A stretch of 64,000 nucleotides of DNA from Sphingobacterium sp. SRCM116780 (lineage in GTDB: Bacteria > Bacteroidota > Bacteroidia > Sphingobacteriales > Sphingobacteriaceae), in assembly GCF_021442025.1 (NCBI RefSeq), contig NZ_CP090446.1:3348001-3412000 (forward strand). The letters are read 5' to 3'. The notes under the pieces are model-generated. The model saw only the letters and a list, made by a program, of their open reading frames with translations, did no database searches and was not told where the DNA came from. Shown here piece by piece: positions 26,062 through 64,000 of this stretch; position 1 is the stretch's first letter, and every line of letters starts with the position of its first letter. The translations under genes and the position numbers were made by a program.

Positions 26062-27489
26062 ATGGAAAAAGTTCAAAAAAGGACTAAAATTGTTGCAACA
26101 TTAGGCCCTGCATCTGCTGATAAGCAAGTGTTAACAAATATGATTGCAAAAGGTGTTGACGTTTGTCGTTTAAATTTCTCTCACGGTAGTCAAGAAGATC
26201 ATTTAAAGGTTATTGACACCATCAATGCGATCAATGAAGAAACTCATTTTAACGTTGCTATTTTAGCCGATCTTCAAGGGCCTAAAATCAGAATAGGAAA
26301 AATGAAAGAAGGTGGAGCAATTTTAGTAAATGGCTCACAATTAGAAATTACAACACATGAGTTGATCGGTGACGAAAAAACCATCTACATCACCTATGAA
26401 AATTTCCCGAATGACGTAGAAGCAAACGAAATCATCCTATTGGATGACGGAAAATTGCAGTTACGTGTATTAAATACCAACCATAAAGATACCGTTACAT
26501 GTGAAGTTGTACACGGCGGTGTTTTGACATCTCGTAAAGGTGTTAACTTACCCAATACAAAAGTTTCCATTCCTTCATTAACAGAAGAGGATTTGGATAA
26601 TTTAAATTTTGCATTAGATCATGGTGCGGATTGGATTGCCATGTCGTTTGTTCGATCGGCTGACGATATCGTTCAGTGTAAAAAAATCATTGCGGCAAAA
26701 GGAAGTCATGCCCGCGTAATTGCTAAAATTGAAAAACCAGAAGCTATTGAAAACATTGATGCCATCATTGAGGCAACAGATGCAATCATGGTGGCTCGTG
26801 GTGATTTGGGTGTTGAATTGCCAATGGAAGAAGTACCTGGTTTACAAAAAATAATCGTTCAGAAATGTAGAGATTTATCAAAACCGGTTATCATCGCGAC
26901 GCAAATGTTGGAAAGTATGATCACGACTCCTCGCGCCACTCGTGCGGAGGTAAATGATGTTGCTAACTCGGTGATCGATGGTGCTGATGCGGTTATGTTA
27001 AGTGGTGAAACTTCTGTTGGAGAGTTTCCTGAAATTGTTATTGAAACGATGAGTAAAATCATTATTCACGTGGAACAAACTTCTTATCCGTATTATAATG
27101 AGAAAGTTAGTGAAATCAGTGATGGCACAAAAATTCCTGATGCGATCTGTGCTTCTTCTGTCTATTTAGCTAAGAAAACTGATGCTTCTGCTATCGCAGT
27201 CTTAACTTCTTCTGGTGCTACGGCATTTGAAATTGCGAGTTACAGACCTAATGCGGATATCATGGTGTTCACAGGAACCAAAAAATTAGTACGTCAACTG
27301 AGCTTATTATGGGGTGTTAAAACCTTTGTTTACGACAAATTTGATAGTATCGATGGTTCTATTCATGATGTCAACAAATTTATTGTTAAAAACAATTATA
27401 TCACACCAGGTTCAATTATTATCAATACGGCTTCAACTCCGTTGATTGAAAAAGGAAAAACGAATACGATCCGTGTTTCACAATTGTAA
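26062..27489 (+). CDS. pyk: pyruvate kinase
   Basis: 475 residues from ATG 26062, the last step of glycolysis (phosphoenolpyruvate plus ADP to pyruvate plus ATP). Visible signs are TKIVATLGPAS, VCRLNFSHGS, the active-site Lys region VIAKIEKPEAIENID, the Mg-binding MVARGDLGVELPMEEVPG and KPVIIATQMLESM. A C-terminal regulatory domain follows (from about 350). The frame is open 37 codons further upstream, but MEKVQKRTKIVATLGPAS is the expected N terminus. Confidence 0.97.
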   Translation: MEKVQKRTKIVATLGPASADKQVLTNMIAKGVDVCRLNFSHGSQEDHLKVIDTINAINEETHFNVAILADLQGPKIRIGKMKEGGAILVNGSQLEITTHELIGDEKTIYITYENFPNDVEANEIILLDDGKLQLRVLNTNHKDTVTCEVVHGGVLTSRKGVNLPNTKVSIPSLTEEDLDNLNFALDHGADWIAMSFVRSADDIVQCKKIIAAKGSHARVIAKIEKPEAIENIDAIIEATDAIMVARGDLGVELPMEEVPGLQKIIVQKCRDLSKPVIIATQMLESMITTPRATRAEVNDVANSVIDGADAVMLSGETSVGEFPEIVIETMSKIIIHVEQTSYPYYNEKVSEISDGTKIPDAICASSVYLAKKTDASAIAVLTSSGATAFEIASYRPNADIMVFTGTKKLVRQLSLLWGVKTFVYDKFDSIDGSIHDVNKFIVKNNYITPGSIIINTASTPLIEKGKTNTIRVSQL

Positions 27490-63132: not shown

Positions 63133-63140
63133 TATCTTTG
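63133..63140 (+). promoter_or_regulatory. -7 box directly before trmD
   Basis: TATCTTTG matches TAnnTTTG and ends four bases before the trmD ATG at 63145. Transcription from it would start at or next to the ATG, giving a leaderless mRNA. No TTTG at the right distance upstream was seen. Confidence 0.45.
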
Positions 63141-63144
63141 CCGC

Positions 63145-63822
63145 ATGCGATTTGATATCATTACAGTACTTCCTAGCTTATTAGAGAGTCCGTTTGCTCA
63201 TTCTATTTTACAAAGGGCGCAAAAAAAGGGCTTAGCAGAAATTGTTGTCCACAATTTACGAGACTATGCCACGAATAAGCAAAAAAGCGTTGACGATTAT
63301 CCATACGGAGGGGGCTCAGGTATGGTCATGCAAATAGAACCTTTTGCTGCGTGTATTGAAAAATTAAAAACAGAACGTGCGTATGATGAGATTATCTTTA
63401 TGACGCCTGATGGCGAAACATTAAATCAAGAAATCGCGAATAATCTGTCAACCAAAGGAAATATGATGATCCTTTGTGGTCATTATAAGGGTATTGATCA
63501 GCGCATTAGAGATATCTATGTTACAAAAGAAATTTCTGTTGGCGATTATGTTTTATCAGGAGGTGAACTTCCGGCGGCTATTTTAACCGATGCAATCATT
63601 CGATTAATTCCTGGGGTTTTGTCTGATGAAACATCTGCTTTATCGGATTCTTTTCAAGATGGATTGCTTGATGCTCCTATTTATACACGTCCTGCGGACT
63701 GGAAAGGCCATAAAGTTCCAGAGGTTTTACTTAGTGGGCATGAAGCTAAAATAGCTGCTTGGCGCGATGAACAGCAACTTCTTCGCACGAAAACAAGAAG
63801 ACCTGATTTATTAAATGACTAA
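63145..63822 (+). CDS. trmD: tRNA (guanine37-N1)-methyltransferase
   Basis: 225 residues from ATG 63145. It methylates G37 of tRNAs, preventing frameshifts. N terminus [20 protein letters not shown], then [30 protein letters not shown] and the trefoil-knot SAM site [13 protein letters not shown]. The frame is open 50 codons further up, but that part is not family-like, so the shorter start is used. Confidence 0.95.
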
Positions 63823-63859: not shown

Positions 63860-63889
63860 TTTGCCTAATCATTTTTTTTTATAAATTTG
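63860..63889 (+). promoter_or_regulatory. promoter of the Trp leader transcript
   Basis: TTTG (63860-63863), 18 bases, TAAATTTG (63882-63889), an excellent match to the Bacteroidota consensus. The ATG of the leader peptide lies seven bases beyond, so the mRNA would have almost no untranslated leader. Confidence 0.75.
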
Positions 63890-63896
63890 TGATACA

Positions 63897-63959
63897 ATGT
63901 TGACATTTAATACATATACTAGTTGGTGGTGGCCTGAAGCAAAAAGCGTCGGGAACTAA
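63897..63959 (+). CDS. trpL: tryptophan leader peptide (attenuator of a trp operon beyond the window)
   Basis: 20 codons, MLTFNTYTSWWWPEAKSVGN then TAA, with Trp codons 10-12 in a row. Three tandem Trp codons in a very short frame right after a good promoter are the hallmark of ribosome-mediated attenuation. Scarce charged tRNA-Trp stalls the ribosome on TGG TGG TGG and changes downstream folding. TAGTTGGTGGTGG (63920-63932), covering the Trp codons, can pair with CCAAAACCAATTA (63988-64000) with ten Watson-Crick pairs, one G-U and two mismatches. The terminator stem and the regulated gene lie past the window edge, so trpE or a sibling is an inference. Confidence 0.75.
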   Translation: MLTFNTYTSWWWPEAKSVGN

Positions 63960-64000
63960 CTGTATTGTTAAAATATTTCATAATCAACCAAAACCAATTA

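Follow-up and report, generated by a model that had tools for sequence, protein, structure and literature searches.

A trp operon follows the leader frame at the window edge

What is the role of a short frame with three tandem Trp codons at the right edge of the window? The window is the whole stretch of DNA analysed here (64,000 nt, positions 3348001-3412000 of a single-contig 4.28-Mb genome). The trmD gene lies upstream of the frame in the window, and 50 of 55 named relatives have a trmD motif at this position. An earlier note on this stretch had predicted that a tryptophan biosynthesis gene follows trmD and is controlled by ribosome stalling. The next 10 kb were examined, using coordinates extrapolated past the window edge (window position = L002 position + 63499). 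The predicted gene is present: trpE begins at 64064, and a chorismate-mutase-like (CM-like) ORF, trpG and trpC come after it.

64064-65470, past the window edge: trpE
65467-65766 (L002 1968-2267), past the window edge, between trpE and trpG: chorismate-mutase-like ORF of 99 aa
65756-66331, past the window edge: trpG
66334-67116, past the window edge: trpC

The nearest named relatives of TrpE are those of Sphingobacterium, with 94% identity to S. faecium. The 99-aa ORF scores 30.9 bits against CM_2 (cut-off 27); its nearest NCBIfam model is isochorismate lyase, with a score below the cut-off of that model.

Promoter and leader frame

The elements found upstream of trpE are listed below.

63860..63889, +: promoter, with a possible -33 element TTTG (63860-63863), a -7 element TAAATTTG (63882-63889) and a predicted +1 at ~63894
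63897..63959, +: leader peptide ORF MLTFNTYTSWWWPEAKSVGN, near-leaderless by prediction (from sequence and genus comparison)
63924..63932, +: three presumed regulatory Trp codons TGGTGGTGG (TGG TGG TGG)
63916..63965, +: region 1:2 hairpin, Trp-codon segment with stop-codon segment (-15.5 kcal/mol), similar to a hairpin in RF01692
63945..63953, +: region 2 AGCGTCGGG, 5′ strand of the predicted antiterminator (9-bp pairing), leader codons 16-19
63960..64000, +: linker, as far as it lies in the window
63982..63996, +: element L AATCAACCAAAACCA, an invariant motif of the linker, found unchanged in 81 of the 93 genus genomes
64010-64041, past the window edge: intrinsic terminator, arms 64010-64021 and 64026-64037, then a T-run

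In the ORF reading of the window the leader frame has 20 codons, from the ATG at 63897 to the TAA at 63957-63959, and the ATG lies 7 nt downstream of the -7 element. In flavobacteria the -7 element spans -12 to -5, at 4-5 nt from the transcription start site (PMC9723704, PMC6847099). Of 123 leaders with a canonical -7 element, 114 have this element 4-10 nt before the AUG (mode 7). Given the 4-5 nt spacing, this predicts an untranslated region of 0-6 nt, and of ~3 nt here. Longer gaps, of 18 nt and more, occur in some other families. For comparison, published rates are 5.5% for leaderless mRNAs in Flavobacterium psychrophilum and ~3.7% for untranslated regions of less than 10 nt in Bacteroides thetaiotaomicron.

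Other starts of this type were noticed in the window. The longest trmD ORF runs from 62995, but homology to TrmD begins at 63145, directly 3′ of TATCTTTG-CCGC-ATG (63134-63147), and for trmD a truly leaderless mRNA is predicted. Two long ORFs, of 460 aa (window 22782, minus) and 612 aa (42142, plus), start 4 and 6 nt past TANNTTTG, which predicts leaderless mRNAs for both. A frame of 19 aa on the minus strand at 27366, preceded by TAAATTTG, was considered as a further leader and discarded, as no leader-terminator arrangement was seen at that place.

Terminator and competing antiterminator

The terminator, AAACCCGATGCT-aatc-AGTATCGGGTTT-T7, has a 12-bp stem, and its first base is located 10 bases beyond the window edge. 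It is the sole terminator-like site in 2.1 kb and, folded alone, reaches -16.9 kcal/mol (z -6.1). Both a trp gene and a terminator are thus found within a few hundred bases of the leader frame. The earlier note had also suggested looking for a terminator that overlaps an antiterminator, and this is what the sequence shows: the 5′ arm of the stem at 64010-64037 is shared with a 9-bp antiterminator, in which region 2 pairs with CCCGATGCT (64013-64021). When region 1 is masked and arm 4 still absent, this pairing, AGCGUCGGG:CCCGAUGCU, gives -20.0 kcal/mol (z -4.4). Spacers of 12 nt and 3 nt separate region 2 from the last Trp codon and from the stop codon, respectively.

The note had drawn another pairing, between the Trp codons and the last 13 bases of the window. 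Such a duplex is indeed possible if two internal mismatches are allowed, but it is neither the antiterminator nor the minimum-free-energy pairing, and composition-matched shuffles of the 13-base segment pair with the Trp codons at least as well in 11-47% of cases. No part of the leader is, even so, better conserved than this segment. As the switch itself this pairing is possible but not favoured; the antiterminator is that of AGCGTCGGG with CCCGATGCT.

Conservation across the genus and the class

The bare pattern TANNTTTG..ATG..TGGTGG has 5 matches in the genome versus 2 for a reversed control. By itself it is unexceptional, and it is conservation that decides whether the leader is real. Such mild enrichment is what could be expected if the leader ORF were a chance frame and trpE were governed by nothing more than a promoter and a fixed terminator. 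However, the leader, its Trp codons, region 2 and the terminator are conserved in the genus and across the class, as detailed below. The comparative data already contradict a chance frame, which we regard as barely credible.

In 93/93 genus genomes trpE is preceded by a WW(W) leader ORF, which is atypical in two of them (L092, L172). This, together with the sequence, confirms the 20-codon frame with three tandem Trp codons that had been read initially, behind a predicted promoter and with a predicted near-absence of untranslated leader. Outside the genus but in the same class, a Trp leader ORF precedes trpE at 56 of 66 loci, and 2 of the 10 loci without leader are truncated upstream. A terminator is present in 140 of the 149 loci with leader. 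In 60 aligned genus leaders, identity is 95.2% in the Trp-codon columns and 94.6% in the -7 element. Some genomes have only two Trp codons (17 in the element L comparison below). All three genomes of one genus of the family, g3 (L125, L155, L156), are without recognisable Trp leader before trpE; attenuation of trpE seems to be lost or changed in this genus.

Pairing of region 2 with region 3 was scored by duplex energy; a contiguous-match test undercounts antiterminators with one mismatch. It exceeds that of dinucleotide shuffles (p<=0.05) in 53 of 68 distinct genus sequences and at 22 of 50 outside loci, so that more than half of the latter individually miss this level; as relatives share descent, these p-values are not independent and combined p-values were not used as evidence. 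The pairing begins mostly 12-16 nt past the last Trp codon, and at 43 of 50 loci region 2 is better fitted by its own terminator arm than by the arms of other loci. It is kept with unrelated sequences (GAACAGC:GCTGTTC, TGCGACAAG:CTTGTCGCA, CGGGGTTCTG:CAGAACCCCG). Retention of the match through such wide sequence divergence is the signature of a pairing under selection. The sequence anatomy of the leader, its conservation and its competing pairings are established here.

A predicted ribosome-mediated switch

A tandem-Trp leader ORF lies between a promoter and a trp gene, an intrinsic terminator precedes the first structural gene, and a terminator-excluding antiterminator is located just 3′ of where a ribosome stalled on the Trp codons would sit. 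In all likelihood, the trpE-CM-trpG-trpC operon is controlled by a classical ribosome-mediated transcription attenuator.

From this arrangement we infer the transcription start site, translation of the leader, stalling and termination as follows. The RNA would start ~3 nt before the leader AUG, the ribosome initiating almost at the RNA 5′ end. When charged tRNA-Trp is scarce, the ribosome would stall on the three UGG codons and leave region 2 free to capture the terminator's 5′ arm; RNA polymerase would then proceed into trpE. When tryptophan is plentiful, a ribosome at the stop codon should, judging from ribosome size, cover region 2; the terminator would then form and transcription would stop ~25 nt upstream of trpE. 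Without translation of the leader, the 1:2 hairpin would likewise leave the terminator arm free. The leader thus very probably shuts trpE off at high tryptophan.

A probable second attenuator precedes trpD

In 28/28 genus genomes searched, trpD is located away from the trpE operon; in the genome of the window it is followed by trpF and trpB. A second candidate Trp attenuator is found upstream of this gene group:

L338, G000:C1 ~3000900-3001070: Trp attenuator upstream of trpD-trpF-trpB, leader e.g. MNKNVINKAWWWHSS

The leader is followed by a terminator, GGCTTGCC..GGTAAGCC. Leader and terminator are present in 28/28 genus genomes examined, and the predicted untranslated region is longer (~11 nt). 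Against the Rfam family Bacteroid-trp, the trpD leader scores 42.1 bits here and 49.0 in another genus member (L332). The trp pathway would thus be under two separate Trp attenuators, that of trpD near the Rfam family and that of trpE divergent. A His leader of the same design was also considered: the one candidate (L365) is antisense inside an Asp-rich ORF and was rejected.

An invariant element in the linker

Element L is the best-conserved stretch of the trpE leader, with 97.2% identity over 15 columns in the 60 aligned genus leaders; the six bases just upstream reach 82%, and the remainder of the linker 42-64%. The 15-mer is found in exact form roughly once in each genome, at trpE (5 additional copies over all 93 genomes; 3 matches for a reversed control). 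Related forms, AATCAACCAAAGCC, GATCAACCAAAGCC and AATCAACCTAAACT, occur elsewhere in the family, in Parapedobacter, Olivibacter and some Pedobacter-group loci, and were not found in the rest of the class sampled. The two further exact 13-mer copies in the genome of the window (L253, L254) were inspected for a role of the motif in other operons; no trp gene is among the ORFs listed there, and this role was not retained. Within the leader, element L has no dedicated pairing partner (mean unpaired probability 0.62). It was also considered as the loop of a conserved hairpin and rejected as such, because the flanking stem reaches significance in just 12 of the 40 distinct sequences. Four genus members (L063, L065, L066, L071) have lost element L and keep the leader (WWWPGA..NYWCV) and a longer terminator. 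The trpD attenuator leaders examined in the same genus are also devoid of it, so a Trp attenuator as such can do without element L.

What maintains this sequence? A protein, such as the transcription factor NusA or a regulator that binds RNA, or else the polymerase might recognise AAUCAACCAAAACCA and set pausing or termination, the position of the ribosome being only one input. A contact of this kind could account for an identity well above that of the non-adjacent spacer, for near-uniqueness in each genome, for the related forms in neighbouring genera and for the lack of a dedicated partner or general flanking stem, but it has to accommodate the trpD leaders and the few genus members in which the attenuator is kept in the absence of the element. 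We consider such recognition a plausible though tentative explanation; we know of no protein that binds element L. Alternatively, as in the pairing drawn by the earlier note, element L could pair with the Trp codons, forming an extra hairpin by which regions 2 and 3 are held apart after departure of the ribosome. It does contain CCA-N3-CCA in register with the UGG repeats (1.7% of shuffles, a post hoc count), and the Trp-codon segment is its best within-leader partner in ~49 of 55 leaders. Yet the core holds two G-A mismatches where CC would be perfect (-18.3 versus -9.8 kcal/mol), shuffled versions of element L equal it at the 11-47% given above, and the element is exact in 15 of the 17 genomes with only two Trp codons. 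Since these mismatches could be avoided and the element persists in two-Trp genomes, contact with a protein or polymerase is likelier than this hairpin, which we judge improbable.

More doubtful still is a role in trans, in which the terminated leader would double as a small RNA of the type of Sinorhizobium meliloti rnTrpL, element L being its seed. As with rnTrpL (PMC7298713), the trp genes are distributed over two operons here, but element L is no more complementary to the region upstream of trpD than shuffled sequences are (13 of 28 loci tested), and no long site complementary to it was found elsewhere. Mimicry of the anticodon arm of tRNA-Trp was set aside and is kept as a lead only: CCAAAACC is shared, but also in 2.5% of shuffles, and no matching stem was seen. 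The tRNA-Trp that shares CCAAAACC belongs to the genome of the window and is encoded at L340 1469-1540 (minus).

Returning to sequence-specific recognition, AAUCAACCAAAACCA would be an undescribed RNA element whose effect adds to that of ribosome stalling, for example because it holds RNA polymerase or recruits a factor, a proposal that we put forward with reserve. If it is true, the trpE leader of Sphingobacteriaceae integrates a second signal, one that does not reach the trpD leaders in these cells. The element offers a defined 15-base target, whose role could be resolved by a single mutation series.

Comparison with known systems

Bacteroidota mRNAs have no Shine-Dalgarno sites, and the near-leaderless start predicted here would provide a natural test of initiation at a 5′-terminal AUG in this phylum. 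To our knowledge, how closely Bacteroidota ribosomes follow RNA polymerase has not been tested directly. The class-wide location of region 2, one ribosome's reach past the Trp codons, implies coupling tight enough for regulation, and the leader would make a small reporter for testing it.

In Escherichia coli, trpL has a longer 5′ untranslated region with a Shine-Dalgarno site, and TrpR control is added to attenuation. The trpE leader shares with it (RF00513, Trp_leader) the Trp codons, regions 1-4 and the competition between antiterminator and terminator. It differs by its predicted untranslated region of ~3 nt and its Bacteroidota promoter, and scores 19.3 bits against RF00513, below 41.

The S. 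meliloti trpL/rnTrpL system has a leaderless Trp leader ORF before trpE(G), a start close to that predicted here, and is similar in having trp genes distributed over several operons. There, rnTrpL begins at the trpL AUG and acts in trans on the trpDC mRNA of the second trp operon (PMC7298713); near-leaderless Trp leaders are thus not new in principle. In contrast, action in trans is unsupported here, sequence and phylum are unrelated, and no element L is known in that system. The actinobacterial trp attenuators are classical, with double or triple UGG repeats and complementary antiterminator/terminator triples (PMC1262725). They belong to another phylum and have GC-rich terminators, and the passages on them describe no invariant linker comparable to element L.

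In the same phylum but a different family, leader-peptide attenuation was proposed for amino-acid operons of F. psychrophilum from transcript maps, the main text of that report being without trpE or tryptophan detail (PMC9723704). Control of the Bacteroid-trp type has also been invoked for this species (PMC6414381). The closest described relative is Bacteroid-trp itself (Rfam RF01692), a Trp leader peptide RNA found upstream of trp genes in Bacteroidetes (Weinberg et al. 2010, PMC2864571). The trpE leader aligns colinearly with the full length of this model (1-131), AUG on AUG and Trp codons on Trp codons, with a similar 1:2 hairpin. However, it scores 28.3 bits, below the gathering score of 49; although it would work alike, it is not filed as a member because of this score. 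Two features of the genus trpE leader, the TTTG immediately upstream of the AUG and element L, are missing from the RF01692 consensus. A further 20 genus trpE leaders also fail to reach the threshold (all 21 scanned are below it), whereas two other trpE leaders of the class, L147 and L148, score 71 and 66. Being missed by the model, the genus trpE leaders tested stay unannotated.

No paper on the Sphingobacteriaceae trpE variant was found; the subscription literature was mostly outside the search, so an earlier mention is possible. Attenuators of this kind are already known; what is new is a Sphingobacteriaceae trpE variant with a near-leaderless start and element L, and the pairing of two attenuators in one pathway.
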